Assembly: GCF_029674545.1 (NCBI RefSeq)
Contig: NZ_CP121354.1
Span: forward strand, 4,535,001 to 4,599,000
Direction of reading: 5' to 3'
Length of the DNA stretch: 64,000 bases
Source of the DNA: Mesorhizobium sp. WSM4904
GTDB lineage: Bacteria > Pseudomonadota > Alphaproteobacteria > Rhizobiales > Rhizobiaceae
Numbering within the stretch: position 1 is the first letter of the stretch; every line of letters begins with the position of its first letter. The position numbers and the translations under genes are program-made. The notes under the pieces were generated by a model, which made no database searches, was not told the DNA's origin, and was given only the letters and a program-made list of their open reading frames with translations. Below are positions 5,626-58,217 of this stretch, piece after piece.

Positions 5626-5668
5626 GAAAACGCGTCCGGCGGACAAAAGGCGCGCGGGCGCCGAAGGA

Positions 5669-6226: not shown

Positions 6227-6246
6227 TCGGCTTGGAGCCTTTGAGC

Positions 6247-6290: not shown

Positions 6291-6422
6291 TCGAAGAAGC
6301 TCATGCAAGGATACCGGTGGTTGCGCCCGGGTGATTCTCTCAATCGCCCAAGGCTAGTCATGGCTGCGATATCGGCAAGCAGCTAAACGCCAATTGTGGC
6401 GACAAAGGACCGAAGAACGCGT

Positions 6423-7978: not shown

Positions 7979-8832
7979 GCTGGCCGATCATCGTCGACAG
8001 CGTCGCAGCGCTGCGGGCGCAAATCCGGACCTGGCGCCAGGAAGGCCAGAGGATCGCCATGGTGCCGACCATGGGCGCCCTGCATGACGGCCACATCTCG
8101 CTGGTGAGGATCGCGCTCGAACAGGCCGAGCGCTGCGTCGTCTCGATCTTCGTCAATCCGGCCCAGTTCGCGCCGACCGAGGACCTGGACAAGTATCCGC
8201 GCCAGTTGGCCCTCGATCTCGACCGGTTGCGGGAAGCCGGCGCGCATCTCGCCTTCACACCGGGTGTGACGGAAATGTACCCGGCAGGCTTCGCCACCAA
8301 GATCTCGGTCGGCGGCCCTGCTGCCGGCCTTGAAACGGATTTCAGGCCGGCCTTCTTCGATGGCGTCGCCACGGTGGTGGCCAAGCTTTTCCTGCAGGCG
8401 GCGCCTGATTGCGCGGTGTTTGGCGAGAAGGACTACCAGCAGCTTTGCGTCGTCAGGCAGCTTTGCCGCGATCTCGACCTGCCGGTCGAGATCATCGGCG
8501 CGCCCACAGTGCGCGACTCCTGCGGCCTCGCCATGTCGTCGCGCAACGCCTATCTCAGCGAGGCCGAACTCGAGGTCGCGCGCAAGCTCAACGCGGTTCT
8601 GCGCCAAACCGCAACGGAACTGGCGTCCGGCGCCGATGAGACCGGCGCCATGGAGGATGCCGCAGAAGCTCTCGTCCGGGCAGGCTTTCGAAAGGTCGAC
8701 TACGTCGCTGCACGCGAAGCAACGACGTTAAGGCCCTGGCGGCGGGACCGCGACGGCCGGCTGCTCGCCGCGGCCTGGCTCGGCACGACCAGGCTGATCG
8801 ACAATGTGGAGATTCTTCCCGCGCCTGAGTGA
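7975..8832 (+). CDS. panC: Pantoate--beta-alanine ligase
   Basis: This is pantothenate synthetase, which condenses pantoate with beta-alanine using ATP. The 285-residue protein shows the nucleotidyltransferase motif VPTMGALHDGHISL (the HIGH-like site), SIFVNPAQFAPTEDLDKYPR, the FGEKDYQQL loop and the KMSKS-like SSRNAYLS. It overlaps panB by four bases. No panD or panE is nearby. Confidence 0.96.
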   Translation: MSWPIIVDSVAALRAQIRTWRQEGQRIAMVPTMGALHDGHISLVRIALEQAERCVVSIFVNPAQFAPTEDLDKYPRQLALDLDRLREAGAHLAFTPGVTEMYPAGFATKISVGGPAAGLETDFRPAFFDGVATVVAKLFLQAAPDCAVFGEKDYQQLCVVRQLCRDLDLPVEIIGAPTVRDSCGLAMSSRNAYLSEAELEVARKLNAVLRQTATELASGADETGAMEDAAEALVRAGFRKVDYVAAREATTLRPWRRDRDGRLLAAAWLGTTRLIDNVEILPAPE

Positions 8833-8877
8833 CGAAGTTTGGACGCCCGGGGATGCTTCAAATCATCTTCGGACGAT

Positions 8878-9366
8878 CTACGTCAGCCGCTTCTCCAGGA
8901 TGAGCGCGGGCATTCCCGAACCGCCGCCGCAATCGGCTGTCCTGCCGGCGGGCCGGAACCCATTCGCCTCGTAGAAGGCGATCGCCGGAGAATTCGCCCC
9001 CTCCACTTCCAGGCGCAGTGACCGCGCTTCCGGGAAGCTGGCCTCGACCTCGTCGAGCAGCGACCGGCCGATCCCTCGCCGCTGACAGTCCGGATGCACG
9101 TAGAGCTGGTTGAGCAGGACGATCTTCGGGTCCTCGGTGACGGAAGCGAACGCCATGCCGCCGAGGCGCTTGCCGTTGTCGGCCACCAGGAATTCCGAGT
9201 TGGGGCGCGTCAGCCGCGCCTTGAGCGAGGCGATCGAATGCCAGTCATCGGTGATCTCGGTGATGCGCCGGGCGCCGTAGACGGCATCGTAGGTGGCGTG
9301 CCAGGTCTCGACCAGCAGCGCACGGATGGCGGCGAGATCGCGTTCGCTCGCCGTCCGCACGAACAT
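8878..9366 (-). CDS. GNAT family N-acetyltransferase
   Basis: This is an acyl-CoA-dependent N-acetyltransferase of unknown substrate, 162 residues. The acetyl-CoA pyrophosphate loop QRRGIGRSLLDEVE sits at about residues 95-108, preceded by the beta-4 segment ILLNQLYVHPDC, and AIAFYEANGFRPAGR forms the C-terminal half. The start codon is one base after the gatB stop, so it is almost certainly the second gene of a gatB operon; the functional link is unclear. Confidence 0.85.
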   Translation of the reverse strand: MFVRTASERDLAAIRALLVETWHATYDAVYGARRITEITDDWHSIASLKARLTRPNSEFLVADNGKRLGGMAFASVTEDPKIVLLNQLYVHPDCQRRGIGRSLLDEVEASFPEARSLRLEVEGANSPAIAFYEANGFRPAGRTADCGGGSGMPALILEKRLT

Positions 9367-9367
9367 G

Positions 9368-10870
9368 CTAGCCCTCGATGCCGAGCTTGGCCTTGACCAG
9401 CTCGTTGACCGCCTGCGGGTTCGCCTTGCCGCCGGTCGCCTTCATCACCTGGCCGACGAACCAACCGGCCATGGTCGGCTTGGCGCGCGCCTGCTCGGCC
9501 TTGTCGGGGTTGGCGGCGATGACCTCGTCGACAGCTTTCTCGATGGCGCCGGTGTCCGTGACCTGCTTCATGCCTCGGCTCTCGACCAGCTGGCGTGGGT
9601 CGCCGCCCTCGTTCCAGATGATCTCGAACAGGTCCTTGCCGATCTTGCCGGAGATCGTGCCTTCCTTGATCAGGTCGATGACCGCCCCTAGCTGATCGGG
9701 CGAAACCGGCGCATTTTCAATATCTTTGCCGGCCTTGTTGAGAGCACCCAGCAGGTCGTTGATGACCCAGTTGGCGGCAAGCTTGCCGTCACGACCGGCC
9801 GCCACCTTCTCGAAATAGTCGGCGATCGGCTTCTCCGACACCAGCACTGACGCGTCGTAGGTCGAGAGTCCGAGCGAGCCGATCAGCCGCGCTTTCTTGT
9901 CGTCGGGCAATTCAGGCAGATGCTGTGCCAGATCATCGACGTAGACCTGGTCGAACTCCAGCGGCAAAAGGTCGGGATCCGGGAAATAGCGGTAGTCATG
10001 CGCCTCTTCCTTAGAGCGCATCGAGCGCGTCTCGCCCTTGTTGGGGTCGAAAAGACGGGTCTCCTGCTCGATCGCACCGCCATCTTCGAGGATGGCGATC
10101 TGCCGGCGCGCCTCGGATTCGATGGCCTGGCCGATGAAGCGGATCGAGTTGACGTTCTTGATTTCGCAGCGCGTGCCGAAGGCGCCTCCGGGGCGGCGGA
10201 CTGAGACGTTGACGTCTGCGCGCAGCGAGCCTTCGTCCATGTTGCCGTCGCAGGTGCCGAGATAGCGCATGATGGTGCGCAGCTTGCTGACATAGGCCTT
10301 GGCCTCGTCGGCGGAGCGCATGTCGGGCTTGGAGACGATCTCCATCAGCGCCACGCCCGAGCGGTTGAGATCGACATAGGACATGGTCGGATGCTGGTCG
10401 TGCATCGACTTTCCGGCATCCTGCTCGAGATGCAGCCGCTCGATGCCGACCTCGATGTCCTCGAATTCGCCCTGCCGATCCGGACCGACAGACACGATCA
10501 CCTTGCCCTCGCCGACGATCGGCTGCTTGTACTGCGAGATCTGGTAGCCCTGCGGCAGGTCCGGATAGAAGTAGTTCTTCCGGTCGAAGACCGACTTGTG
10601 GTTGATCGCGGCCTTCAGGCCCAGCCCGGTGCGGATCGCCTGCTTGACGCACTCCTCGTTGATTACCGGCAGCATGCCGGGCATCGCCGCGTCGACCAGG
10701 CTGACATTGGCGTTGGGCGCGGCGCCGAAAGACGTCGAGGCGCCGGAGAAGAGCTTCGCCTCGGACGTCACTTGCGCATGCACTTCGAGACCGATGATGA
10801 TCTCCCAGTCGCCGGTAGCCCCGGAGATCAGGCGTTTCGGATCTGGCGTGCGGGTATCGATGATGCTCAT
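9368..10870 (-). CDS. gatB: Aspartyl/glutamyl-tRNA(Asn/Gln) amidotransferase subunit B
   Basis: This is the B subunit of GatCAB, which converts mischarged Glu-tRNA(Gln) or Asp-tRNA(Asn) to the amidated form. The 500-residue protein has the GatB signature [19 protein letters not shown] at its N-terminus, [17 protein letters not shown], the segment [15 protein letters not shown], and a C-terminal YqeY-like tail domain ([13 protein letters not shown]). gatA and gatC are not in the window. Confidence 0.97.
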
Positions 10871-10997
10871 TGAGGCCTACGTACTTAGAATTCTCGGATA
10901 TGCATAACGCATATTTTTGATGTGCAACTTCGCTAGTGCAAACCGCCCGGCGAGACAAGCGCAAAGCCGCCTGCTGGCCTTTTCCGCCGCTTTCGCC

Positions 10998-11133
10998 TAT
11001 AGGACATCCATCCCAATGGAGAGTGGATGTCCACTTACGCTCAGTCCCGGTAAGGCCCTGACCTCCTAGCGAGGCAGGGCGACAAAAACCTGAAACCCCG
11101 TGCCGCGATTTCCGCGGCGGCGGCTTTTGTTGT
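10998..11133 (+). ncRNA. Candidate structured RNA or leader upstream of yjhX
   Basis: The first hairpin has perfect arms GGACATCCA (11002-11010) and TGGATGTCC (11024-11032). A compound hairpin GCCCTG-A-CCTC...GAGG-CAGGGC spans 11055-11080. A GC-rich stem GCCGCG/CGCGGC (11102-11118) is followed by a T-rich run, like a Rho-independent terminator. A TATAG element lies just before the first hairpin. The second stem contains CCTCCT, an anti-Shine-Dalgarno sequence. I could not match it to a known riboswitch or sRNA family. It is either a free sRNA or an attenuated yjhX leader. Confidence 0.5.
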
Positions 11134-11151
11134 TTTCCCGGGAATTCTTCA

Positions 11152-11409
11152 ATGGACATTTCGCGTAACGAACAGCGCATCCTGCACCTGCTCGCGCAAG
11201 GCGGGCGCATCGAAATCAAAAAGAACGACAGCAAGAAGATCGCTTCGGTCCAATGCCTGACCCGCGACGGCTGGCATTATCCGGGCCTCGACCTTGACCT
11301 CTTTCGAAAGCTAAGGCGGAAGAAGGCCGTATCTTCGTCTTCCGGCGGACCCTACCGCATCACCAGACGCGGGCTGGAACTGGTCCGCGCCGAGCTCGAC
11401 AATAGATAG
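11152..11409 (+). CDS. yjhX: YjhX family protein
   Basis: This is a small protein of 85 residues matching the YjhX (UPF0386) family over its full length: ISRNEQRILHLLAQGG, then KIASVQCLTRDGWHYPGLDL, and GGPYRITRRGLELVR. E. coli YjhX has been described as a toxin paired with YjhQ, but no YjhQ-like acetyltransferase is adjacent here, so a toxin role in this organism is doubtful. The fold looks like a small winged helix. It is preceded by the structured RNA candidate, whose terminator ends about 20 bases before the start codon. Confidence 0.85.
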   Translation: MDISRNEQRILHLLAQGGRIEIKKNDSKKIASVQCLTRDGWHYPGLDLDLFRKLRRKKAVSSSSGGPYRITRRGLELVRAELDNR

Positions 11410-11463
11410 AGGCTTTCATGCCCGGTTCCGCCGGCCGGCAATGGCCGGCGGTTCCTCGCCGCC

Positions 11464-11895
11464 TCAGGCGGTGGCGATATAAGCCCGGATCTCCTCGGCC
11501 TCGCGCTCGACATCCTCGATGCGGCGCTTGACCACGTCGCCGATGGAGACGATGCCATCGAGCATACCATCCTTCTCCACCGGAAGATGGCGGAAGCGGC
11601 CCCTGGTCATGATTTCCATGACCTCGTTGACCGTATGGCTCTCGTTGCAGATCTTGACCTTGGGCGTCATGGCCGAACGCACCGCGATATCGAGCGCCGC
11701 CGCTCCTTCCCTGGCTATGACCCGCACGATGTCGCGTTCCGAAAGAATGCCGACGATCTTGCGGTCGCCATTGGTGATGACCAGCGCGCCGATCCGGTGC
11801 TCGGTCAGGATCCGGATGGCTTCGCTCAGCTTTTCATTGGGCCCGAGCGTGAACACGTCATGGCCCTTGCTTTCAAGAATTGCCTTAACCGTCAT
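11464..11895 (-). CDS. CBS domain-containing protein
   Basis: This is a stand-alone pair of CBS domains, 143 residues, which typically binds adenine nucleotides as an energy sensor. CBS1 covers about residues 8-62 (LSEAIRILTEHRIGALVIT, then GILSERDIVRVIA) and CBS2 about 75-130 (VMEIMTRGRFRHLPV, then GIVSIGDVVKRRI). The start is ATG 11895, preceded by GAGGAGG; a longer frame to 11979 has no family support. No partner domain or neighbouring transporter indicates the target. Confidence 0.88.
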   Translation of the reverse strand: MTVKAILESKGHDVFTLGPNEKLSEAIRILTEHRIGALVITNGDRKIVGILSERDIVRVIAREGAAALDIAVRSAMTPKVKICNESHTVNEVMEIMTRGRFRHLPVEKDGMLDGIVSIGDVVKRRIEDVEREAEEIRAYIATA

Positions 11896-11977
11896 GGCGT
11901 CCTCCTCAGCCTTGCTCGCCGGCTCCTGCCCTGACCGGCTTAAGCCCCAGCGCCCTCGGGAAGACGCTGGGTGGCTC

Positions 11978-12062
11978 AAAGCGCGCCGCAGCGCGCTTTA
12001 AGTCATTGTTTTGATGCATCTCTCTCTCCCAAAACCGCTTCGCAGTTTTGGGCGACATGCAT
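11978..12062. repeat. Palindromic intergenic repeat, family B copy 3
   Basis: A shortened first module (AAAGCGCG...CGCGCTTTA) is followed by the second module with CCCAAAACCGC, CAGTTTTGGG and a GACATGCAT end. It lies between the CBS gene and the rhomboid gene. Confidence 0.7.
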
Positions 12063-12110
12063 GGCAACATCGTGCGCCGTGATTGGTTGCATTTCAAGTA
12101 TGATGCGGAG

Positions 12111-12854
12111 TTACTCGGCCGGCGGCGGACGGTCGAAAAAACGCAGGCCGAAGAAGCCGGCCACAAAGCCGCCGATATGGGCTTCCCAAGCGATCTGGCC
12201 GTCGATACCCGGCGCGAGGTCTAGCAGGCCGGTGGCGAGGTTGATCACCATCCAAACGCCGAGAAACGTCACGACGCCGCGCAAGCGCAACACGATTGCG
12301 ATCGGCAACGGATCGCCGGCGAAGGCCGCCCGGCCGGACGAGCGGTCGATGCGGAAGCCGTAGCGCGCCGCCGCACCCATCATGCCCGAGATCGCGCCCG
12401 AAGCGCCGACGAGCGGCATCTCGCCATAAGGGTGCATTGCCCAGAACAGCGCGACCGAAGCGAGCCCGGTCACGGCGTAGAACACCGCAAATCGAAGGGC
12501 GCCGAGGCGATTGGCAAGCGGTGAGCCGAAAGCGGCAAGCCAGACCATGTTGATGGCGATATGGGCAAAGCCCCCATGCATGAAGGCGTAGGTGAAGGGA
12601 CGCGTGAACAGGAACCAGTCGAAGCCGTATTGGCCGGTATAGAGCACCGGGATGAAGGCTCCATCGTAGAGCAGCGTCATTTGCTGGGTTTCGTTCAGCA
12701 CATATTGCTGCAGCAAAAAGACGATCGAGCATATCGCGATCACCGCCAGCACCACCGGCGGCAGGTTGAACACCGGCTCGCGGCGCGGCTCCGGCGCCTC
12801 TTCGTCCGGCCGCGGTTCGGGTTCAGTCGGGCTTGTCGGTTCGTTCATGCGCAC
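12111..12854 (-). CDS. Rhomboid family intramembrane serine protease
   Basis: This is a predicted intramembrane protease, 247 residues with about six hydrophobic segments. The catalytic serine motif GASGAISGMMGA (GxSG) and the catalytic histidine in EAHIGGFVAGFFG are both present, as is a loop resembling the rhomboid L1 loop (ANRLGALRF, HGGFAHIAINMVWL). The N-terminus is a cytoplasmic Pro/Glu-rich tail of about 30 residues. The active-site residues argue for a working protease rather than an inactive rhomboid. Confidence 0.9.
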   Translation of the reverse strand: MRMNEPTSPTEPEPRPDEEAPEPRREPVFNLPPVVLAVIAICSIVFLLQQYVLNETQQMTLLYDGAFIPVLYTGQYGFDWFLFTRPFTYAFMHGGFAHIAINMVWLAAFGSPLANRLGALRFAVFYAVTGLASVALFWAMHPYGEMPLVGASGAISGMMGAAARYGFRIDRSSGRAAFAGDPLPIAIVLRLRGVVTFLGVWMVINLATGLLDLAPGIDGQIAWEAHIGGFVAGFFGLRFFDRPPPAE

Positions 12855-21888: not shown

Positions 21889-22661
21889 GGCTCGTCCTCA
21901 TACAGCGCTTCGGCGAGAAAGGCAGCCGGATCGCTGCAGAAGTCGCGCATCATGCGAAAATGATCGGTGTCGTGAAAATCGGTCGCATCGAGGCCGAAGC
22001 GGCTGATGCGGAAAAGCCGCGCGTTCGGGCAGGCCATCAGCAGCGGCGAATGCGTCGCCATGATCACCTGCGCGATGCCGGAACGCTCCATCCGTTGGAG
22101 CAGCTTCAGCAACTCGATCTGGCGCGTCGGCGACAGCGCGCTTTCGGGCTCGTCGAGGATGTAGATGCCTTGGCGGCGGCAGCGCTCTTCGAAGAAGCGG
22201 ATGAAGCCCTCGCCATGCGACCAGGACAGGAAATCGGGCGGCGGCGCGCCAACATCCAGTGCTGCCCGATCGAGATAGCGCGCTACCGAATAAAACGACT
22301 CAGCGCGAAAGAACCATCCCGCGGTAACCTTCGGCAGCCAATGGCACCGTAACGCGGCAGCAAGTGAAATGCCGCTCTTGTCCACGGCACTGGAATGATC
22401 GACCGGCCGGTAGCCTTTGCCGCCGCCGGCCTCGTCATAGCCGGCCAGCGCGCCTATTGCTTCGAGTAGCGTCGACTTGCCGGTGCCGTTCTCGCCGACG
22501 ATGATGGTGATGGCCGACGTGAATTCGAACTCGAATTCGCGATCCCGGAAGATCGGCAGGTTCCAGGGATATTGCTCCCAATCCGCCACCCGCGACGGAT
22601 CGAGCAGGATGCGCTTGAGATAGGGCGCCTTCAGCCGCGTCAGTTGCTTGCGGGCAGCCAC
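21885..22661 (-). CDS. AAA family ATPase (SMC/OLD-like head domain)
   Basis: This is a 258-residue ABC-type ATPase with no coiled coil. Walker A is VGENGTGKSTLLEA, the signature-like region is SWSHGEGFIRFF, Walker B is GIYILDEPESALSP, and the H-loop is MATHSPLLM. It resembles the small stand-alone AAA_21/AAA_23 ATPases annotated next to varied effectors. Here the coupled neighbour is the CoA-binding protein gene, which overlaps it by four bases, so an anti-phage role has no support from the context. Confidence 0.88.
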   Translation of the reverse strand: MAARKQLTRLKAPYLKRILLDPSRVADWEQYPWNLPIFRDREFEFEFTSAITIIVGENGTGKSTLLEAIGALAGYDEAGGGKGYRPVDHSSAVDKSGISLAAALRCHWLPKVTAGWFFRAESFYSVARYLDRAALDVGAPPPDFLSWSHGEGFIRFFEERCRRQGIYILDEPESALSPTRQIELLKLLQRMERSGIAQVIMATHSPLLMACPNARLFRISRFGLDATDFHDTDHFRMMRDFCSDPAAFLAEALYEDEP

Positions 22662-46770: not shown

Positions 46771-48104
46771 GCGCCGTCGCGCATGAGGTGCCGGCGTCGG
46801 CGGTCAACCCGTTGCCGCCTTCCGCGGTCAACCAGTTGCCGCCTCGCGCGGCCAACCAGTTGCCGCCTTCCACGGTCAACGCCAAGCTTATCGCGCTGAT
46901 CTCATCGGCAGCGATCGTCGTCGGCATCCTGCTTTCCGGCTTCGTCATCAGCGAGCCGGCGCCTTACGAGCTCTACATGGCCGGGCTGATCGCCGTCTGG
47001 GCGCTGTTCGGCCTGAGAATATCGCGGGCTATCTTGCCGCTGCTGGTGCTGCTGGTGGCGATGAACATCGGCGGCATGATGGCGATGACGCAGATGGCGG
47101 ATCTCGCCAACACGCCGCTCTATCTCGCCGTCTCGCTGTTCCTGGCCTTCAGCGCGGTCTTCTTCGCCTCGGTGACGTCGGTCCAGCCGGACCTCTACCG
47201 GCTGATCTTCATCGCCTATGTGGTCTCGGCCGTCGCGACGTCGCTGCTCGGCATCGCCGGCTATTTCCATGCCTTCCCTGGCGCGGAGATGTTCACCAAA
47301 TACGACCGCGCTGCCGGCGCCTTCCAGGACCCGAACGTGTTCGGGCCGTTCCTGGTGTTGCCCGGCACCTATCTGCTCTATCTGCTTTTGACCGGTCCGG
47401 TGTCGCGCATGCCGCTGCTGGCGGTGCCGTTGCTGATCATCGCTGTCGGCATCTTCTTCTCCTTCTCGCGCGGCGCCTGGGGCATGTTCGCGGTGTCGGC
47501 GGTCCTGCTCACCGCTTGCCTGTTCCTGCAGAGCGCCAGCGGCATGTTCCGGCTACGGCTGGTGGTGATGACGATCGGAGCCGTCGCGCTGCTGGTCATC
47601 GCCATCCTCGTCATCCTGCAGCTGCCCGGCGTGTCGGACATGTTCACGCAGCGCGCGCATCTCGAGCAGAGCTATGATACCGCGCGGCTCGGCCGCTTCG
47701 CCCGCTACACGATCGGCTTCCAGATGGCGCTGGAGCATCCGTTCGGCATCGGGCCGCTGGTGTTCGGCACGATCTATGGCGAGGACACGCACGACATCTG
47801 GCTGAAGGCGCTGATGGATTATGGCTGGCTGGGCTTCGTCTCGTTCCTGACGCTGACGTTGTGGACGATCGGGGCCGGTTTCCGCATTCTGCTGCGCGAC
47901 CGGCCATGGCAGCCTTACCTGCTTTGCGCCTATGTCGCCTATCTCGGCAATATCGGCCTCGGCACCTTCATCGACATCGACCACTGGCGCCATCTCTATC
48001 TGCTGCTCGGGCTGATCTGGGGCGCGATCGCGCTCGAGTACCGGCATCAGAAGCAATTGCGGCTGGCGCGAGCGCCCGTCGCGGCTGCGGCCGCGCTACT
48101 TTAA
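46767..48104 (+). CDS. O-antigen ligase/Wzy-like polymerase
   Basis: This is an inner-membrane protein of about 445 residues with ten or more spans and the Wzy_C-like central region (FSFSRGAWGMFAVSAV, then ARLGRFARYTIGFQMALEHP, FGIGPLVFGTIYGEDTHDIWL). It joins or ligates repeat units. The start is TTG 46767, overlapping the preceding TGA (TTGA). The N-terminus carries a 24-base tandem repeat of about three copies. It ends nine bases inside the convergent cyclase gene. Confidence 0.88.
   Translation: MSAVAHEVPASAVNPLPPSAVNQLPPRAANQLPPSTVNAKLIALISSAAIVVGILLSGFVISEPAPYELYMAGLIAVWALFGLRISRAILPLLVLLVAMNIGGMMAMTQMADLANTPLYLAVSLFLAFSAVFFASVTSVQPDLYRLIFIAYVVSAVATSLLGIAGYFHAFPGAEMFTKYDRAAGAFQDPNVFGPFLVLPGTYLLYLLLTGPVSRMPLLAVPLLIIAVGIFFSFSRGAWGMFAVSAVLLTACLFLQSASGMFRLRLVVMTIGAVALLVIAILVILQLPGVSDMFTQRAHLEQSYDTARLGRFARYTIGFQMALEHPFGIGPLVFGTIYGEDTHDIWLKALMDYGWLGFVSFLTLTLWTIGAGFRILLRDRPWQPYLLCAYVAYLGNIGLGTFIDIDHWRHLYLLLGLIWGAIALEYRHQKQLRLARAPVAAAAALL
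46800..46872 (+). repeat. 24-bp tandem repeat at the N-terminus of the Wzy-like gene
   Basis: GCGGTCAACCCGTTGCCGCC is the start of each unit. Three 24-base units encode A(V/A)N(P/Q)LPP(S/R), followed by a partial fourth (TVN). It forms a Pro-rich cytoplasmic linker. Confidence 0.85.
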
Positions 48105-49862
48105 GCCGGCCTTGCGCAAACCATCGACAAGCAGTTCAGTATCCTCAGGATATTTGTGCGGGGGCACCTTGCGCCACTGCTCGGTGGTGAAGTTGGGGTG
48201 CACCTTCAACAGCGCATGGGCATGCATCTCGGCCTCTCTTGTGTTGCCGAGATGGGCATGGCTCGCCGCCATGAGCCGATGGCCCTCTGAGCCATCCCGC
48301 ATCTTTTGCAGTGTCTCTATCGTTTTTTCATATTCGCCCAGCTGAAAATAGGCATCGCCAAGATACCAGAGATAAGCGTCGGGATAGTAGGGATTGAGAC
48401 GCATCGCCCGTTCCAGCAGCTTCACGGAGCGCTCCGCCTGCCTGACATAAACAAGGCAGTCACCCATCTCGGCCAGCAGATCGGCGTCGTTGGGATTGAG
48501 TTGCAGGGCGCGTTCGTAGGCGGCGATCGCCGGATCGTGCTGCTTCTTGTAGAGGTGGGCCAAACCCATCTCGGAGTAACCGCGCGCATCCAGGTCGTCA
48601 TGCTGGACGGCCAGATTCGCCAGGTTCAACGCCTCGTTCAGCGCAGCTTCCGGATCCTTGGTCCACGCATAACGCCACTCGACATTGAACGTCCGCGACA
48701 GGGCGGCATAGCTGCGGGCGTAGCCAGGATCGAGATTGCGCGCCTGCTCGTAGAGGCGCCTGGCATGCCAATTGCTCTCCGGGCGGAAGCGGAAGCTGAG
48801 ATCCTGTCCGCGCAAGATCATGCCGTAGGCGTGAATATTGGGATGGTTATGCGCCATCAGCCGCCGCTTCTCGGCCATGTCGATCTGTATGGCCAGCCGC
48901 GACGCGGTCGTGGCCGTAACGTCGTCCTGGAAGGCGAAGACGTCCTCGATGCTGCCGTCGTAGCGTTCCGACCAGATCGTGTGCTCGGTTTGCGCTTCGA
49001 TCAGGTCCATTGCAACCCGAAGACGGTTGCCTGCCCGGCGCAGGCTGCCCGAGAGGAGATAGCGAACGCCCAATTGATTGGCGATCTCGCGCAGTGATTG
49101 CGTCTGCGCGACAACGGCAATCGTCGAGTGCCGCGCGATCACCATCAGGTTGCGGAATCGGCACAGATTGGAAATGAGGTCCGCCACGACACCCTGGCAC
49201 AAATGAAAATCCGCCGGGTCGCCCGAAACGTTCTCGAGCGGCAGGACTGCCAGCGAACTCTCCGGCACGAAACGCTCGGGCGCAGGGGCGAAGAGCAGCG
49301 GCGGTGTTGCGGACTCGGAATGCGACAATTCGAAATCGACGGCGAAGACCTCGACTTCCTCGGCAATGTTCTTCAGCTTTTGCTTGCCCAGCGACCGGAA
49401 CGAGCACTCCGGGTCATCGCGAACAAATTGGCGAACGGATTCGGCGATGCAAATGCCGCGCGGCGCCGCCAGCGATTGGATCCGGGCGGCCAAATTGATG
49501 CCGTGGCCATAGATGGTGCCGTCGCTGGCGATCGTGTCTCCAACCGTAATTCCAATCCGGTAGGTGATGGGATCGTCGGCGCCCGACCATACCGCCTCGT
49601 TGGACAGCTCCCGCTGCATCTCGACCGCGAAATGCAATGCCTGGGTTGCGCTGGGGAACAGCACCACCAGGCCGTCGCCGGCTGTGTCGACAATTGAACC
49701 GCCATAGTCGCCGGCCAGGCCGCGTATCAAGTTAAGCGATCGGGTCAGGCGGACAACCGTCCCTGCCTCGTCCTGATCCATCAGGCGACTGTAGCCGTGC
49801 ACGTCCGCGTAGACGATCGCCGATAGCTTTCGACTAAGCATCTCGTATCGGCTGATGGCCAT
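48096..49862 (-). CDS. Class III adenylate/guanylate cyclase with TolB-like and TPR domains
   Basis: This is a 588-residue signalling protein. The class III cyclase domain covers about residues 12-170: YADVHGYSRLMD has the first metal Asp, TAGDGLVVLFPSA the second, and GHGINLAARI the conserved Asn/Arg pair. A TolB-like domain follows (ESSLAVLPLENVSGDPADFH), then TPR repeats from about 380 to 560 (LNPNDADLLAEMGDCLVY). No membrane span is seen. The start is ATG 49862. It lies downstream of the RiPP-like operon on the same strand, with a hairpin between; a link is possible but unproved. Confidence 0.92.
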   Translation of the reverse strand: MAISRYEMLSRKLSAIVYADVHGYSRLMDQDEAGTVVRLTRSLNLIRGLAGDYGGSIVDTAGDGLVVLFPSATQALHFAVEMQRELSNEAVWSGADDPITYRIGITVGDTIASDGTIYGHGINLAARIQSLAAPRGICIAESVRQFVRDDPECSFRSLGKQKLKNIAEEVEVFAVDFELSHSESATPPLLFAPAPERFVPESSLAVLPLENVSGDPADFHLCQGVVADLISNLCRFRNLMVIARHSTIAVVAQTQSLREIANQLGVRYLLSGSLRRAGNRLRVAMDLIEAQTEHTIWSERYDGSIEDVFAFQDDVTATTASRLAIQIDMAEKRRLMAHNHPNIHAYGMILRGQDLSFRFRPESNWHARRLYEQARNLDPGYARSYAALSRTFNVEWRYAWTKDPEAALNEALNLANLAVQHDDLDARGYSEMGLAHLYKKQHDPAIAAYERALQLNPNDADLLAEMGDCLVYVRQAERSVKLLERAMRLNPYYPDAYLWYLGDAYFQLGEYEKTIETLQKMRDGSEGHRLMAASHAHLGNTREAEMHAHALLKVHPNFTTEQWRKVPPHKYPEDTELLVDGLRKAGLK

Positions 49863-50106
49863 GGCTTCCCTTGTCCGCGCTCGCAACGCAAATCAATGCA
49901 CCATATAGCACGCAGATACTGCGCACTGCAGCACGGAAAGAATGGCACATTAGGTCGTGCTCAAGGGAGTGTTGCCGGGACCAAGGAGGGACGCCCGGAA
50001 TATGCCGCGCCCCGGTCATCCGCTCAGCGCGACAGGGGCGGCTCAGTTCCGTATCGCCGCCCCCAAGCCCCGTCACCAATCCCGGCACGATGCCGGCATA
50101 CGCCAA

Positions 50107-50125
50107 ACCCGCATTCCATGCGGGT
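50107..50125 (-). terminator. Hairpin at the end of the repeat-protein gene
   Basis: Perfect arms CCCGCAT (50108-50114) and ATGCGGG (50118-50124) sit next to the stop codon of the repeat gene. On the minus strand this reads stop, stem, then TTTGG, so it could end or stabilise the operon transcript. Confidence 0.5.
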
Positions 50126-50967
50126 CAGTCGCTGTTGCCGCCGCCGCGGGCGCTCATGCCACGCGCGCTCATCCCCCTCGCGCTCATGCCGCGCGCGCTC
50201 ATCCCCCTTGCGCTCATCCCGCGCGCGCTCATGCCGGCGCTATCCATGCCTCCTGGTCCGCCGCCGAGCGTCGCGGCAAGCAGCACATCCTCGAACATAC
50301 CTGTCTCGACATCCATGCGGACGGTGTAGTCGGCCTTGTCGTAGGACCAGACTCGCAGGCCATCGGCGAAGTCGAAGTCGGCTGCCGCGAGGCCCGTCAG
50401 TCCGGTCGGACTGGGTGAGCGGGCGGCACTGAACGTGCCGAGATCCTCCGCCACGAGCTCCCCATCCCCGTGCACCAGAAATATTATAGGCCTTGGGAGG
50501 TCGTAGTAGCTTCCCTCGAAACTGAAGCCATATATCCTTGCAAACCTGCCGTTTTCCAACTGATCTTCAAGCAGCCTGTTCTTCCCGCTTCGGTTTCCCG
50601 CGCCCGGGCGGCGCCCGATGAATTCGAACCCGCTCTCAAGCTTCATGAAATAACCGACAAAGCTATCCCCGCCGGTCACCTGGATTATTGCACCGGTAGG
50701 CGTGTCATCCTTGGTCCACGCACTGTCTGCGCCGCCTACCGTATAAACCCCAATCTGATCCAAAACCTTTTGTTTCCAGACGACAACCTTGTTCTTATTT
50801 GCCACACGCAGGCCATTCACGACCTTATTGCCAGTCAACGCTGGCACATGCTTCGCCGTCGCTACCTGCGCCACGATCGGATTCAGAAGTGGGTTCACCA
50901 CCTGCAAATCGATCACAAAATGCCCGAATAGATTTATACCCGACACGCTAAGAAGGCTCTCTACCAT
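50125..50967 (-). CDS. Putative RiPP precursor with six C-terminal MSARG repeats
   Basis: This is a 280-residue protein of unknown family. The first 235 residues (for example KVLDQIGVYTVGGADSAW and LPRPIIFLVHGDGE) show no domain I know, no signal peptide and little low complexity. Then comes GGGPGG, one imperfect unit MDSAG, and six perfect Met-Ser-Ala-Arg-Gly units (residues about 246-275), ending GGNSD. It is the last gene of the YcaO-TfuA operon, with a good site (GGAGG, nine bases from ATG 50967). By analogy with repeat-bearing thiovarsolin precursors, I infer that the repeats are modified cores. The alternative is a structural repeat protein. Confidence 0.6.
   Translation of the reverse strand: MVESLLSVSGINLFGHFVIDLQVVNPLLNPIVAQVATAKHVPALTGNKVVNGLRVANKNKVVVWKQKVLDQIGVYTVGGADSAWTKDDTPTGAIIQVTGGDSFVGYFMKLESGFEFIGRRPGAGNRSGKNRLLEDQLENGRFARIYGFSFEGSYYDLPRPIIFLVHGDGELVAEDLGTFSAARSPSPTGLTGLAAADFDFADGLRVWSYDKADYTVRMDVETGMFEDVLLAATLGGGPGGMDSAGMSARGMSARGMSARGMSARGMSARGMSARGGGNSD
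50143..50232 (-). repeat. 15-bp tandem repeat array encoding MSARG x6
   Basis: Six 15-base units, each encoding Met-Ser-Ala-Arg-Gly, with a degenerate seventh (MDSAG) at 50233-50247. Arg is written CGC or CGT and AGG in alternation, and Gly is GGG or GGC, so the units differ at the DNA level but not at the protein level. Confidence 0.95.
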
Positions 50968-51028
50968 TGCCGCTACCCTCCGGTTTCTGGATCATTTGTC
51001 TAACGTGTTAAATAGTATGATTTTGTCA

Positions 51029-51211
51029 TCAGGCAGCCTTTTGGCCTCGGCTTTGTCTCTCAGCTACTTCCAACTCATGCGTCACAACATAAACACGGTC
51101 GCTTTCGCGCCATAATACACTTATGACCCTACCCCGTTTTTTAGATATGTTATTTACATGATCCTGCAGTAGTTCGATGCTATCCATGATTTCCGTTACG
51201 ACGTATTGCAT
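51029..51211 (-). CDS. Small conserved-looking protein in the RiPP-like operon
   Basis: This is a 60-residue protein of unknown family, with the sequence elements IELLQDHVNNISKKRGRVIS and RVYVVTHELEVAERQSRG. Codon use and a very strong Shine-Dalgarno (AGGAGG, eight bases before ATG 51211) show it is translated. It sits 22 bases after the peptidase gene and 61 before the repeat protein. It could be a RiPP recognition/accessory protein, or a second precursor; no cysteine is present. Confidence 0.7.
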   Translation of the reverse strand: MQYVVTEIMDSIELLQDHVNNISKKRGRVISVLWRESDRVYVVTHELEVAERQSRGQKAA

Positions 51212-51233
51212 AAGATGTTCCTCCTCATCTCAC

Positions 51234-52649
51234 TCAAAGAACGCCAGCCCTGCTTCTGGTCAGGGCGCTTCGCGTTCCCACATGTCTCGCGATACGCAGG
51301 TGCCGTGCACAACAAGCGCCATGACGGGCCGGGACGAATACCCTCGGCAAACCGAAGTGGCTTTTCGGCCCGAAAGGCTTGATTTTGGGGCCGGCACTCA
51401 CAAAGCCGATCGCCCTGCGATTGAGATTGACGTCGATGATGGTGCGCCAGCGCCCGCCGGTCATCATCCTGTCGACGGTGCGCAACGTGTTCCCGACCTC
51501 GGCATAGCTGAGACCGTCTGGCGACAGCCGACGCCAGGTTTCGGCAAGAAGCATGCCGAGCTCGTCGCGCGAAGCGACCAATGCCTCGCGAAATGCCCAG
51601 GGTGACGCAGCATAGGCTTCATCGAACATCGGCTGGATGACGCGGAAATAGTCGGGGCTGTCCTCCAGCCTGTCGGACAGATCTTCCTGGTCGTGGGTGA
51701 TCAGGCCGCGGGCGACCAGCTCTTCGTGAAAGAGGTCGACGAAAATGTCGAACATCGCACCGGTGAGCGGTTGGGCGAGAGCATGCTCGTCGCTCCAGCC
51801 CTGGACGAAATCCAGCATCGACAGCGGGTTGGCGGCGAGCCTGATCTGGCTGTTACTGGATAGCTCGGCGATGCGGTTGACGAGATTGTGCGTGTAAAGA
51901 TTGCCGTGGCTCGCTTGCAACAACTCGTCCACCACGGAATCGAAATGCAGGGCCGCGACGAGCGCAGCAAGGTCGGCAGAGGATTCGTGAAAACCGTAAT
52001 ATTCCGCGCTGGCCGTCCCGGGGTCGGGCACGCCGATGATGGAATAGATGACGCAGTGGCCGACCTCGTGGGCGACAACGTCGAAGTTGAGCGTGAACGG
52101 CTCGACCTGGCCATCCGGCGTCTCGTGTATGCCGACCTCCAGAAAACCGTAACCCATGAAGGCGTTTTCGTGCAGATTGCGCTGTATCACCAGTTCCAGC
52201 CGATCGTGGTCGCGCTGGAAATGCCAGGTGATGGGATGGCCGAAATACTTCTCCCACACGTCCAGGGTGAAACGCACCGAGCCAAACAGATGCGCAGCCT
52301 CGAATGTCGGATCGTCCGGGCCGATGTGATCGAAATGCCCGTCGACATCGGGAAACGCCGGAGGAAAGACATCGCCGCGCCAAGGCGGCATTAAATAGAG
52401 CGGGTCACCGCGGACATTTTCCGCCAGGCCGTAGGCAAACGCCTTGCCAATGGGGTCGACGACATACATGCGCCTGTCACCGGGGCCTGGGCCAACCGAC
52501 CCCGCAGGCGACGACACGTGCACGATTTCGGACCGGTGGAAAGACTTAAGGAACGGCGCTTGGGCAAACAGCCGGAAGCGCGTTCCATTCTCGAATACAG
52601 AGTCTTCCCCTCCAGATGTCACGATTGCCCCCCGTACGGACAAAGGCAT
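51234..52649 (-). CDS. M4/gluzincin-like zinc metallopeptidase
   Basis: This is a 471-residue protein with the gluzincin zinc site: HEVGH at residues 194-198 and the third ligand Glu in HESSADLAALV (Glu 222). Their spacing fits the M4 thermolysin-like clan rather than M48. The N-terminal ~190 residues hold QRDHDRLELVIQRNLHENAF and no signal peptide, so it is probably cytoplasmic, unusual for M4 enzymes. It sits between TfuA and the small-protein gene in the operon, consistent with processing a precursor. An alternative is an unrelated protease. Confidence 0.8.
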   Translation of the reverse strand: MPLSVRGAIVTSGGEDSVFENGTRFRLFAQAPFLKSFHRSEIVHVSSPAGSVGPGPGDRRMYVVDPIGKAFAYGLAENVRGDPLYLMPPWRGDVFPPAFPDVDGHFDHIGPDDPTFEAAHLFGSVRFTLDVWEKYFGHPITWHFQRDHDRLELVIQRNLHENAFMGYGFLEVGIHETPDGQVEPFTLNFDVVAHEVGHCVIYSIIGVPDPGTASAEYYGFHESSADLAALVAALHFDSVVDELLQASHGNLYTHNLVNRIAELSSNSQIRLAANPLSMLDFVQGWSDEHALAQPLTGAMFDIFVDLFHEELVARGLITHDQEDLSDRLEDSPDYFRVIQPMFDEAYAASPWAFREALVASRDELGMLLAETWRRLSPDGLSYAEVGNTLRTVDRMMTGGRWRTIIDVNLNRRAIGFVSAGPKIKPFGPKSHFGLPRVFVPARHGACCARHLRIARHVGTRSALTRSRAGVL

Positions 52650-52689
52650 TCAGGTCACATGGACTGCGATATCGTCGGCGAATGCGGTT

Positions 52690-54021
52690 TCAAGTTAGCC
52701 CGTTTTCGTCGGTCAGGCCAGAGTCGTCGGGCGAGCTGCGGCCGGCCGCGAAAGCATATCCATGAGCCAGCAGGTCATAGAACTTGTCGACGCCGGGCAA
52801 TCCGATGGAAATGGCATAGTCGGCAATGTCTCGAGGTATGGCGCGACCGAGTTGTTCCTCGAAAAACCAGGCAGCGAGCAGGGCACGAGGCATCGGCGCG
52901 GACAACGATGGCGAGCGGCGCTGTCTGGCCAGGGCATTCTGTCGATAGCCAGGGTAGAGCTCGAGTTCGCGTAACCGGTCGAGCATGCCTCGATGCAGCT
53001 CGGCATCGCGATCTCGCGCGAGCGTCTCGACGGCCGCATCATCCTCGATCATGCGTTCTAGGCCAGCTAGATCCGTTCCGTTTTCGCGTATCCAGTCGAT
53101 TACGTCCGTTTGCCGCATAAGCCTTCGCCGCGAGCGAAACTCGCCCATGGCGCGCCTGACCGCCAGGCGATCCGGCGCCGCGTCATCGCCGCGGGCAAGC
53201 AGACGAAGCAGTGCCTCGCGACGCAACCGCGCATAGTCGCCGCGCAGCCGAAGCTCATCGAGGATGGCATCTTCTTCGGCAGTGGCTTTGTTGCTGATCC
53301 ACGCTGTTTCATTTCGCCAGGATGCATTGTGCCAGTTTTCCGTCCACTCGAAGTGGAAGTCGGGAGGCGCTTGTGCAGCGCCACGGCGGATAAACGCATC
53401 CATCTCCTTCAGCAGTTGCAATCCGTCCTCGCGCTTCCTGTCGACCTTGCCTGTCCGCAGCCAGGCCGCCAGCGCCTGGGCCGTTCCGGGATCGTCGACG
53501 TCTGCCAGGACGTCCCCCCAGGTTCTATCCCGGTAGAACCGCGCCTTGGACGAAGCTGCCAGGCGCGCGCCTGTCGGCCTGTCGATGATCTGTTGTGCGA
53601 CCGCCTGCTCGAGCGTCGCGCGAATATTGACCATCGGCTCGCTCAGGTGGATGTAGCCGGTTTCCGGCGGGCCATGGATAAGCGCGACCTCGTCGTCGTC
53701 GGTGAGTTCGCCGTCGCGATAGGCTTCGAAGATGCGTCCGACGCCGCGCATGCCGAACGAATGCAACTCCGCGGCGCGGAGCGCGCCCATGCTGGACGCG
53801 CCGAACACCGCGATCCCTTGCGTCAAGGCCCAAAGTATCTCCTTGTGCAAGACGGCCGGCTGACCATCGAAATAGCCGTCGATGACGCCGATTGCTCTTG
53901 GGCCGCCGCGAGCGGCGGCATAGAGGTCTCCTTGGCGTACCGGGGGGAGGAATTCGAATCCATCGTAAGGCGCGACGTCGCGCGCCCGCAGACTTGGCCC
54001 GCAAAACACGACCAGCTTCAT
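52690..54021 (-). CDS. TfuA-like protein
   Basis: This is a 443-residue protein with an N-terminal TfuA-like domain: VVFCGPSLRARDVAPYDGFE, then RQGDLYAAARGGPRAIGVID, IAVFGASSMGALRAAELHSF and GELTDDDEVALIHGP. TfuA partners of YcaO supply sulfur in making thioamides (as in trifolitoxin, thiovarsolin and McrA thioglycine). The C-terminal half (residues about 180-430) has no domain I recognise and is longer than usual. The start overlaps the YcaO stop by four bases (ATGA), so the two are tightly coupled. Confidence 0.93.
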   Translation of the reverse strand: MKLVVFCGPSLRARDVAPYDGFEFLPPVRQGDLYAAARGGPRAIGVIDGYFDGQPAVLHKEILWALTQGIAVFGASSMGALRAAELHSFGMRGVGRIFEAYRDGELTDDDEVALIHGPPETGYIHLSEPMVNIRATLEQAVAQQIIDRPTGARLAASSKARFYRDRTWGDVLADVDDPGTAQALAAWLRTGKVDRKREDGLQLLKEMDAFIRRGAAQAPPDFHFEWTENWHNASWRNETAWISNKATAEEDAILDELRLRGDYARLRREALLRLLARGDDAAPDRLAVRRAMGEFRSRRRLMRQTDVIDWIRENGTDLAGLERMIEDDAAVETLARDRDAELHRGMLDRLRELELYPGYRQNALARQRRSPSLSAPMPRALLAAWFFEEQLGRAIPRDIADYAISIGLPGVDKFYDLLAHGYAFAAGRSSPDDSGLTDENGLT

Positions 54022-55226
54022 TGTCCCTCGTCCGACATTCGGCGGGCTCGCTCGCCGGGCACATAGGCGTCATGATCGTCGGGACCTTCAAGGCCAGGTA
54101 TGACCACGCGAACTACAGGCAGGCCGATATCCTCCTTGGCCAGATCGACGGCGATGATCTCGCTTACGCCAGCCGCCTGTAACCTTTCGATCAGCCAGGC
54201 CACATTCTGCTCGATCCCTCGTGCGGCCCTCCCCGCGGCAGAGGCAATTCGCCTCGTGACGGAACGCTCGGCCAGCAATCTCTCCGCGTGCCGACGGCGT
54301 TTGTCCCGATAATCTTCGCCATACTCCTCGGCGGTCAGATCGTCTCGCGCCGCCGATACGTAGGTCGTTCGCACCTGAGCGGCCTCGATGAGCGCCTTGA
54401 GCAAGGCGGTCTCCGGCACCGGGTGCGCTGCCGCGCCTATGCCGCAATGGCTGTTTCGGTCTCGGCGATCGACGATCAGGCAGAAAAAGGCCGGCACGCC
54501 GACGTCGGAGGTCGTTTCCCACGCCGCGACGTCGAAGTCCGCGCCTTCCAGCTTCTTCAACACGTCGCGGCATGGGCCGTCCGGCGCACTGCCGAGGTCG
54601 ACGCCGGTGCGCCGCCGGCGAGCGGACGGCATCCGATTCCACAGGGCCGTCGCGTCGCGTTCGACGATCTCGCAAATCCCATGATGGATGGCTTCATCGA
54701 ATGTATTTCCGGAAGCGAGCCCGTTGCTGCTGCAGTCGAAAAAACCACTTCCGGGGGGCGGCGGAACCGTGAAGTTGGCCCGCACTGACTCGAACGGCAA
54801 CCAGCGCGCCGCACCGGAGATCATCTCCCGGCCTTCGATCCACAGCGTCACGATGTCCTTGGTGAATGCCCTTCCGGTGATGCGAGGCAGCTTGCCAATC
54901 TCGGCGAACCGGTGCGATTGGGAAAGTTCGGCCATGCTGCCGAACTTCAGCGGGCGCTCGATGTGCTCGGCGTGGTAAAGTTCCGCCGCTTCCATTAGCC
55001 CCGAGGCCGTGGCCGCCTCCAGGTCGATGCCCTTGCCCTGCGAAACAGCCAAAGAACGGGCGTTGGGGCGACAGACCATCACAACCGGAATGCCTATGCG
55101 ATCAAGCCCGGTCACATTGGCGACCCTGGTAATTCCCATCCGCGCCCAGTATGGGCGAACCCGAGCAATCGCGCTACGAGCGCCCTCCATGCGATAAGGA
55201 GTTGCTGGCACCGTGTCCAACGACAC
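54018..55226 (-). CDS. YcaO-like ATP-dependent backbone-modifying protein
   Basis: This is a YcaO-domain protein of about 402 residues. It has GITRVANVTGLDRIGIPV, then RSLAVSQGKGIDLEAATASG (ATP site region), LMEAAELYHAEH, the SSNGLASGNTFDEAIHHGIC segment, EIVERDATALW, and EAAQVRTTYVSAARDD. These match TfuA-partnered YcaOs, which make thioamides, more than azoline synthetases. GTG 55226 is preceded by GGAG; ATG 55190 is another choice. The longer frame runs into the family B repeat at 55304 and is rejected. Confidence 0.93.
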   Translation of the reverse strand: MSLDTVPATPYRMEGARSAIARVRPYWARMGITRVANVTGLDRIGIPVVMVCRPNARSLAVSQGKGIDLEAATASGLMEAAELYHAEHIERPLKFGSMAELSQSHRFAEIGKLPRITGRAFTKDIVTLWIEGREMISGAARWLPFESVRANFTVPPPPGSGFFDCSSNGLASGNTFDEAIHHGICEIVERDATALWNRMPSARRRRTGVDLGSAPDGPCRDVLKKLEGADFDVAAWETTSDVGVPAFFCLIVDRRDRNSHCGIGAAAHPVPETALLKALIEAAQVRTTYVSAARDDLTAEEYGEDYRDKRRRHAERLLAERSVTRRIASAAGRAARGIEQNVAWLIERLQAAGVSEIIAVDLAKEDIGLPVVRVVIPGLEGPDDHDAYVPGERARRMSDEGQ

Positions 55227-56883: not shown

Positions 56884-57483
56884 ATGAAACTGAAGTTATT
56901 CGCGATTGTGCTCGGCACGATTTCAAGTCTTGCCAGCGCCGCACAAGCGGATACCGTGCGGGTCCGCGGCACGGTGGTCGACCTCGCCGGAACGGCGCTG
57001 ACCGTAAAAGGCCGCGACGGCAAGACCGATACGGTCACCCTTTCTCCCGATTGGATGATCTCCGGCGTCGCCAGGGCATCGGCCGCCGATATCAAACAGG
57101 GCGATTTCCTCGGCATCGCATCGGTTTCGAAGGCCGATGGCGGCAGTGGCGCCCTGGAAGTCGTGATCTTCCCGGCAGCCCTGAAGGGAACGGGAGAGGG
57201 CGACCGCGCCTGGGATCTTAAACCCAACAGCCGGATGACGAACGGCACCGTCGCCGACGTGACCGAGGTCAGCGGCCGGACGGTGACGCTCACCTACAGC
57301 AACGGCCAGAAGAAGCAGATCGCCATCCCGCAATCGACGCCGATCGTGAAATTCGCAACCGCCAAACCGGCGGATCTCAAGCCGGGGACGGCGGTGTTCG
57401 TCACCGCCTCGCGCGGCAGCGACGGCAAGCTCGTTTCGCGCCGAGTGGTGGTCGGCAATCATGGCGTCGCCCCGCCGATGTGA
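56884..57483 (+). CDS. Secreted protein with DUF5666-like beta-barrel repeats
   Basis: This is a 199-residue protein with a signal peptide (KLFAIVLGTISSLASAAQA). Two similar halves follow, each with a short OB-like motif: VRVRGTVVDLAGTALTVKGR and NGTVADVTEVSGRTVTLTYS. The pattern resembles DUF5666 proteins. A GTG at 56866 is an alternative start. The function is unknown. Confidence 0.75.
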   Translation: MKLKLFAIVLGTISSLASAAQADTVRVRGTVVDLAGTALTVKGRDGKTDTVTLSPDWMISGVARASAADIKQGDFLGIASVSKADGGSGALEVVIFPAALKGTGEGDRAWDLKPNSRMTNGTVADVTEVSGRTVTLTYSNGQKKQIAIPQSTPIVKFATAKPADLKPGTAVFVTASRGSDGKLVSRRVVVGNHGVAPPM

Positions 57484-57709
57484 GGCGAAGAAGCCGGCGA
57501 GTTCCAAAAGACCACGATAGCGCTTCGCGCCCTGCGCGTCCGACGGGGCGCGCGGGACCGTCATGGTTCAGTCGGAAACAATCCAGCAACAAGAATCTAT
57601 AGTCCGGAAAAATTGTCGAAAAAAACCAGGAGGATAGTCCCGATCGCGAGGCTTGGGTCACCGATTTGGTCCGGTGAATCTCGGAACGCCCGCGAAAGGA
57701 AACGAAGTC

Positions 57710-57907
57710 ATGAAGAAGTCCCTCCTGTCCGCGCTCGGGCTGGCTCTGGCCCTGGCGTTCACGATGCCGATCCTTGGCGCGACCAGCGCCGACGCGGCTC
57801 CGATGAAGAAGCATCATCACCATCGTCATCATCACACGCATCACCGCCGCGTGCATCATCGCCATCATCGTCACCACCATAAGAAGATGGCCCCGAAGAA
57901 GGTCTGA
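57710..57907 (+). CDS. Histidine-rich small secreted protein
   Basis: This is a 65-residue protein with a signal peptide that probably ends at ADAAP (residue about 30). The mature part of about 35 residues has 16 His and many Arg/Lys (MKKHHHHRHHHTHHRR, then HHRHHRHHHKK). It follows AAAGGAAACG. It could chelate metals in the periplasm or bind nucleic acids or DNA-like polyanions; function is inference. A long inverted repeat follows at 57921. Confidence 0.75.
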   Translation: MKKSLLSALGLALALAFTMPILGATSADAAPMKKHHHHRHHHTHHRRVHHRHHRHHHKKMAPKKV

Positions 57908-58217
57908 TCGTTCCCCTTTGCCGATGGGAAGACAGACCTTCTTGTATTGACCAAGCATGCCTTCCCATCGGAATCTTTCGCTGCACAGGGCAGCGCTTGC
58001 CTCGAGCAGCTACCGGCCTTGATGGGACGCGCGGTCGCGTTCGATCTTCTGCGTTGCAGTCCAACCACAATCTGCCCGACGAAAAAAATCGTGCGGGACT
58101 ATGAACCTTCCCCATTGGAGGCCGCACCAAGCGGTCATGGACGCCACGAAGGCGCCCCTCGGCCCAACCGGGACGCCAGGAAGGCGATCCCAACAACCAA
58201 TGGAAAGAAATGCTCAA
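57908..58217. other. Intergenic region with a long inverted repeat
   Basis: CCGATGGGAAG (57921-57931) and CTTCCCATCGG (57961-57971) form 11-bp perfect arms with a 29-base loop, likely the end of the His-rich gene transcript. The remainder shows no gene. Confidence 0.55.

Follow-up and report, generated by a model that had tools for sequence, protein, structure and literature searches.

A YcaO-TfuA operon of Mesorhizobium sp. WSM4904 encoding the probable large-leader precursor of multi-core, putatively thioamidated peptides

Introduction

YcaO enzymes introduce thioamides in several described systems. In the thiovarsolin pathway of Streptomyces varsoviensis, varA, varY and varT suffice for a thioamide product, and thiovarsolin-type precursors carry up to five repeats but are non-repeating in Asanoa (PMC6511847). 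A YcaO-TfuA pair of methanogens thioamidates a glycine of McrA (PMC5589413), and in Pseudomonadota the YcaO of Escherichia coli thioamidates the backbone of a large protein, uL16 (PMC13063428). Here we describe an operon found in a 64,000-nucleotide stretch of Mesorhizobium sp. WSM4904 (contig NZ_CP121354.1, positions 4,535,001 to 4,599,000; hereafter the window), in which genes for YcaO and TfuA are followed by those for a zinc metallopeptidase and a 280-residue repeat protein that is the putative precursor or substrate (hereafter PRE). The operon probably makes a multi-core, likely thioamidated peptide akin to the ribosomally synthesized and post-translationally modified peptides (RiPPs) and would thus represent a new, large-leader family of TfuA-YcaO peptides. 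The family is set apart by its large carrier-like leader and repeated cores and by its association with a nucleotide cyclase and a fungalysin-like protease.

Two surveys of TfuA (PMC6511847 and, with "standard settings," PMC8120280) used RiPPER with a precursor window of 20-120 residues, and PRE would have been missed by both because precursors were limited to that range, which is a search setting and not a biochemical requirement. The main text of PMC8120280 contains no word starting with "repeat," "Mesorhizobium," "cyclase" or "protease," and the PRE gene clusters may be among its 613 families under another precursor. None of the titles and abstract starts listed for TfuA, YcaO, multi-core RiPPs and fungalysin, all from outside the subscription literature, described the PRE family.

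Results and Discussion

Gene Layout and the Repeat Protein

All genes of the operon lie on the minus strand. The YcaO gene (54018-55226) has a GTG start and overlaps the TfuA gene (52690-54021) by 4 bp at 54018-54021; the zinc metallopeptidase gene (51234-52649, with an HEVGH motif), an open reading frame (ORF) of 60 residues (P60, 51029-51211) and the PRE gene (50125-50967) follow. The first-pass annotation, made from the sequence alone, had placed these five co-directional ORFs and the four-base overlap correctly, while its list omitted the neighboring nucleotide cyclase gene (48096-49886), which comes next on that strand. The YcaO gene would extend to 55406 if the first ATG were the start; the shorter start at 55226, also chosen in that annotation, fits better because the entire open frame of the relative in locus L003 comprises only 411 codons. 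In the window genome, which is a single contig of 6.65 Mb, TfuA and PRE each gave one match.

The C-terminal part of PRE consists of six five-residue units (residues 245-274; 50146-50235, minus strand), which are the putative cores and are read here as Gly-Met-Ser-Ala-Arg, in agreement with the six units noticed earlier. Tandem Repeats Finder scored the region 50150-50232 at 145 with a 30-nt period and at 110 with a 15-nt period. Preceding the units is a conserved leader end (residues 198-234; 50266-50376, minus strand; FDFADGLRVWSYDKADYTVRMDVETGMFEDVLL...), in which W207, Y209, D210, D213, R217, D219, G223 and L229 were invariant among 39 sequences and which is a probable enzyme-recognition segment. 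In the structure model, residues 236-280 have predicted local distance difference test (pLDDT) scores below 50. A total of 259 PRE homologues were found, which were 178-430 residues long among the matches listed; they have the leader in common, whereas their tandem units differ from protein to protein.

An optional insert at residues 29-119 (50611-50883, minus strand) resembles phage virion domains, and the virion-like homology of PRE is limited to this insert. No Pfam family matched PRE with an E value of 1 or lower, and a hit to XrtP (E 0.061) was at chance level. Foldseek found no match at E 0.001 for the whole PRE model, and a further Foldseek comparison matched mainly the insert. A phage or prophage origin of PRE was rejected, as tblastn against 50,697 phage records returned nothing at E 0.01. 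The insert also occurs by itself in other open frames of 437-1277 codons in seven genomes of the window's taxonomic order (G032, G049, G086, G092, G123, G127, and G321).

Distribution, Gene Order and Co-divergence

One genome from each of 84,980 species was scanned for relatives of the locus; 99 relatives were found and 80 loci were kept. The PRE loci belong to Alphaproteobacteria of several orders and to a few metagenome-assembled genomes of Gammaproteobacteria, and relatives of the operon occur in many marine and soil Proteobacteria. The synteny counts refer to the 70 loci whose sequence extends 4.6 kb or more upstream of PRE. Among these, YcaO and TfuA were present in 55, the peptidase in 64 and the cyclase in 62, and TfuA accompanied YcaO in all 55 YcaO-bearing loci. 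The order YcaO-TfuA-peptidase-PRE-cyclase recurred in 41 loci (cyclase gene convergent in 30 and co-directional in 11), and 7 further loci had YcaO-TfuA-peptidase-PRE without a detected cyclase. In a sample of 347 genomes from the window's taxonomic order, TfuA of any kind was found in 55 and PRE with its leader region in 13, all 13 of which had a TfuA match 1.7-2.6 kb away. These 13 were counted out of 23 matching genomes after a weak match (G265, 1.8 kb from TfuA), 7 insert-only and 2 repeat-only matches had been dropped; at most seven candidates were scored per genome, and divergent PRE may therefore have escaped the survey.

The distances between PRE leaders of 50 loci correlated with those between their YcaO (r 0.72), TfuA (r 0.72) and peptidase (r 0.78) proteins, and none of 2000 permutations gave values as high. 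Similarly, the PRE-linked TfuA proteins clustered in a TfuA tree of 95 rows, with 4 label changes against a mean of 25.2 for shuffled labels, and none of 500 shufflings was as low; the TfuA of L148 and L149 were labeled as PRE-linked by hand (PRE lying elsewhere in the genome) and that of L183 on a weak PRE match. The TfuA of L181, L182, and L184, which have no nearby PRE, fall among the PRE-linked rows; L182 and L184, but not L181, are cut off by contig ends close to the peptidase or past it. The L181 locus (5415-12587) has a YcaO-TfuA pair of the PRE-linked TfuA branch without peptidase or PRE, and this pair lies near an opposite-strand protein of 1184 residues whose start looks Ser/Thr kinase-like by eye.

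Variation and Selection in the Repeat Units

A total of 23 unit types was found across 67 arrays, with at least 22 changes on a TfuA tree; therefore, the units of an array switch jointly while the leader persists. Unit identity was 0.95 within arrays vs. 0.61 between proteins, the latter calculated for equal-length units at their best rotation. Selection keeps the units homogeneous: among the codon differences between neighboring units, 1074 of 1141 were synonymous, compared to 308 expected for random single-base changes, although array ends were picked by amino-acid match, which leads to fewer nonsynonymous differences being counted, the loci are related, and 13 of the 80 loci gave no array. 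Thus, the units are divergent as DNA and near-identical as peptides. For whole tails, without any picking of ends, 1136 synonymous and 1069 nonsynonymous differences were counted in the 67 loci outside the Rhizobium group described below, vs. 118 and 283 in the 12 loci of that group and 166 and 4018 in the leader directly before the repeats at equal spacing. In the closest relative of the window locus in the scan (L001 of Mesorhizobium, 99% identity), 12 of 26 neighboring-unit codon pairs differed, every one of them synonymously, so the repeats are unlike the product of fresh DNA slippage.

Units of 6, 7, and 8 residues also occur in the family, as do units without Ser, Thr, or Cys (GMNAR, GANVR, GMQAR, GMHAR, and GGGKV), although the GMSAR of the window has a Ser. 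For azoline chemistry a core must contain Cys, Ser, or Thr, and the several unit types without these residues therefore disfavor azoles. The likeness of Ser-Ala-Arg to the Ala-Pro-Arg core of thiovarsolin, to which the first-pass annotation had drawn attention, turned out to be superficial, as no common APR-like motif was visible by eye in the 23 unit types of the 67 arrays.

YcaO and TfuA

The YcaO protein matched Pfam PF02624 with 252.5 bits and scored higher with the NCBIfam model for McrA-glycine thioamidation (TIGR03266; 199.8 bits, below the equivalog cut-off of 365) than with the azoline model (TIGR03604; 137.1 bits); its best match among solved structures was MJ1094 (6pe3). Eight residues (S135, E139, E142, E246, E249, R250, Q344, and R346 in the 462-residue numbering) were invariant in 58 of 58 aligned sequences, and we take them to belong to the three ATP motifs. 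In YcaO proteins associated with TfuA, for which three specific motifs are also described, ATP motifs 1, 2 and 3 show a preference for Met, His and Ala, respectively (PMC8120280); M138 (0.98), H242 (0.97) and A342 (1.00) are conserved in the alignment and may be the equivalent residues.

The TfuA protein matched Pfam PF07812 with 159.1 bits and NF033432 with 203.9 bits, below the cut-off of 235.2; like TIGR03266 for YcaO, NF033432 is an McrA model and the best NCBIfam match of its protein. The TfuA domain covers approximately residues 1-208 (3-208 in the match to the solved structure 6xp8) and is followed by a C-terminal extension of ~235 residues that has no family match in Pfam or NCBIfam. 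In 53 aligned sequences S77 (1.00) and K60 (0.98) were conserved, and by our own assignment they form the putative Ser-Lys pair, which in TfuA is described as hydrolysing ThiS-COSH and thereby supplying sulphide (PMC13185837).

Zinc Peptidase, Cyclase and Other Neighbors

The peptidase is predicted to have a fold like that of fungalysin (M36) or thermolysin. The fold model and the metal ligands (HExxH and Glu) agree with M36, whereas no sequence-family match was obtained with Pfam and a sequence search against solved structures gave no match; a Pfam hit to WHH was at chance level (E 0.21), and nothing above chance was found in Pfam for either the peptidase or P60. P60 was considered as a general substrate and ruled out. 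At E 0.001 its relatives were confined to 7 of the 80 loci, all from Mesorhizobium (L001-L007), and P60 is therefore no general component of the system.

The product of the cyclase gene contains a class III nucleotide cyclase domain (PF00211) and TPR families in Pfam, and scored 63.1 bits with TIGR04510 ("putative peptide modification system cyclase"), far under the cut-off of 400. Its relatives are the most frequent neighbor of the PRE family (68 of 82 loci). A cyclase-TPR match also adjoins other TfuA-YcaO loci without PRE (L185, L186, and L187), and the association with the cyclase may therefore extend beyond the PRE family. In addition, a gene that looks GNAT acetyltransferase-like by eye was near PRE in 30 of 82 loci, and a tRNA-Pro gene lies directly upstream of the window operon on the opposite strand.

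Elsewhere in the window, ARAGORN called a 97-nt tRNA-Glu at 22113-22209, which is below the Rfam gathering score and probably false. A 24-nt tandem repeat (46789-46880; 3.8 copies, 83% matches) lies within a long open frame, and a 15-nt repeat at 57812-57880 encodes a Met-rich stretch of a minus-strand ORF (57401-57958).

Exceptions and Alternative Explanations

Several observations weigh against PRE being the precursor of released, thioamidated peptides. First, the correlated distances can reflect the common descent of the operon. Second, 12 of the 80 loci (10 from Rhizobium and 2 from records named "Rhizobiales bacterium") consist of cyclase, peptidase and PRE without a nearby YcaO-TfuA pair, and PRE may therefore work without this pair, or else be modified in trans. 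Homologues of this kind, which the first-pass annotation had expected to weaken the precursor idea, thus exist next to the 55 of 70 loci with the pair. Third, in Leisingera L027 and L028 the YcaO-TfuA pair is found only elsewhere in the genome, together with a peptidase gene, and the arrays are perfect; in L038, no such pair lies within the 3.4 kb that remain up to the contig end; the peptidase is missing from the vicinity of PRE in four Paracoccus loci; PRE lacks the repeat in L048 and L188, where the operon genes are present; and the TfuA of L188, though PRE-linked, groups with unlinked TfuA. Fourth, not one residue is shared by every unit type, DMSSRV being without both Gly and Ala, and the modification site therefore cannot be named. 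Finally, no transporter was recognized among the operon genes; 21 of 82 loci contain, at any position, a member of an ABC-type ATPase family.

All 12 Rhizobium-group genomes carry TfuA and YcaO elsewhere. Modification in trans by these pairs is disfavored, as the 23 TfuA genes in question belong to the opposite half of the TfuA tree and, in two of four regions inspected (L142 and L150), another kind of small ORF is nearby. These ORFs (L142, 8622-8843; L150, 9899-10225) encode 70 or 98 residues, end in SAQVALSGHVDG or SAKTAFSGHFDG and adjoin a large ORF that looks regulator-like by eye; they are perhaps a second, unrelated TfuA precursor family. The PRE tail of the Rhizobium group is a short imperfect stretch (e.g., MSRSGGALSRSGGVMSRSGGF). 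With L073, which is cut by a contig end, left out, arrays that reached the score set for the array search with at least three full units were found in 63 of 67 loci outside the group vs. 0 of 12 within it. This pattern fits a history in which YcaO-TfuA were lost and the repeat was then relaxed, probably as a single evolutionary event. The same cyclase-peptidase-PRE arrangement, annotated as a cyclase and hypothetical proteins, is found on p42c of Rhizobium etli CFN 42 (PRE: RHE_RS23820), and Rhizobium accounts for 49 of the 51 plasmid records that match PRE.

An explanation that we consider unlikely is that PRE is a thioamidated working protein whose tail stays attached, as in McrA and uL16. 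The tail and the phage-like domain would then belong to a cell-bound or multimeric structure, with the peptidase serving in trimming or quality control. Such a role would suit a large protein with a folded, phage virion-like domain, an operon without a recognized exporter and enzymes whose top NCBIfam matches are the McrA models, and it has a precedent in the backbone thioamides known on a large protein (PMC13063428). It would also suit the C-terminal Asp, which 69 of 80 loci and 115 of 120 homologues among the matches listed retain despite the variable units before it and which would be odd if the units were simply cut up. The homogeneous units that switch between lineages and the presence of the peptidase in 64 of 70 loci nevertheless better suit released cores, and the insert domain is optional.

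We regard it as improbable that PRE carries pentapeptide or other structural repeats while YcaO-TfuA act on something else. Precomputed matches to PF00805 exist in five relatives (P0071, P0074, P0103, P0112, and P0120), units of the SGANL type resemble what we take to be the pentapeptide consensus, A(D/N)LXX, and PRE persists without nearby YcaO-TfuA in the Rhizobium group. However, neither PF00805 nor any other Pfam family matches the window PRE with an E value of 1 or lower, a five-residue coil would be broken by the 6-, 7- and 8-residue units of the family, and the repeats are predicted to be disordered in the structure model. Moreover, PRE was near TfuA in 13 of 13 cases in the order sample, and the arrays are degenerate where nearby YcaO-TfuA are absent, albeit in a group that probably reflects a single event.

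YcaO enzymes are versatile and the ~235-residue extension of TfuA matches no family, but we give very little credence to the idea that YcaO puts a different backbone modification, such as an amidine or one not yet described, on these units. TfuA, whose described role is sulphide supply (PMC13185837), is present in all 55 YcaO loci, and its S77 and K60 are conserved.

Proposed Pathway and Significance

The proposal of the first-pass annotation that the locus encodes a multi-core RiPP-like pathway with a large leader and its own protease is supported by the gene order, the conserved leader with its homogeneous units, the correlated distances and the protease-fold model; the APR likeness is superficial, and P60 is no general component. 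In the proposed pathway, PRE would be the substrate, its N-terminal ~235 residues serving as a partly folded leader and its identical short C-terminal units as the core region. Using ATP, YcaO would activate backbone amides within the units, while TfuA would provide the sulphide for converting them to thioamides. The fungalysin-like zinc peptidase may then cut at or between the units; a thermolysin-type cut before Met, Val, or Leu, which are present in most unit types, would release peptides of 5-7 residues. The cyclase probably ties production to cyclic-nucleotide signaling. A more speculative and rather unlikely extension is a widespread peptide-tag system, the products of which are lineage-specific thioamide signal peptides and not antibiotics: 3-9 near-identical units would be borne on a large folded, perhaps multimeric carrier and freed intracellularly by the protease under a tie to the cyclase, with the Rhizobium group representing a sulphur-free version.

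If PRE is the precursor, a family with leaders of ~150-390 residues, as derived from the homologue lengths, would have been overlooked by searches for 20-120 residues, and the true substrate of some proteobacterial TfuA clusters may have gone unnoticed. With at least 23 natural unit sequences for a single type of enzyme, the family allows direct tests of the sequence rules of backbone thioamidation, and it would connect a RiPP-like operon with a fungalysin-like protease and a nucleotide cyclase.

Comparison with Known Systems

The peptidase differs from fungalysins of M36 in its low identity (11-13%), in having no Pfam match and in showing neither a secretion signal nor a propeptide by eye. 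The operon as a whole resembles the thiovarsolin pathway in its adjacent YcaO and TfuA genes, its repeated putative cores and, if the units are released as proposed, its short linear products (PMC6511847). However, thiovarsolin comes from Actinobacteria, has an APR core and a precursor within the 20-120 residue search window, compared to 280 residues for the window PRE, and its seven named genes, as described there, include neither a metallopeptidase nor a cyclase (PMC6511847). Conversely, the heme oxygenase-like varO, varL, varP, and varS of thiovarsolin (PMC6511847) have no counterpart in the window operon; no domain like theirs was found with Pfam in the six proteins of the locus, and none was seen by eye among the 25 commonest neighbor families. 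With the McrA system, the operon shares the best NCBIfam models of YcaO and TfuA (TIGR03266 and NF033432), both below their equivalog cut-offs. The substrate in that system is a Gly of a large enzyme (PMC5589413), whereas here it would probably be many units of a disordered tail. Likewise, uL16 is a ribosomal protein (PMC13063428), whereas PRE is a repeat protein encoded beside the enzymes that are proposed to modify it.

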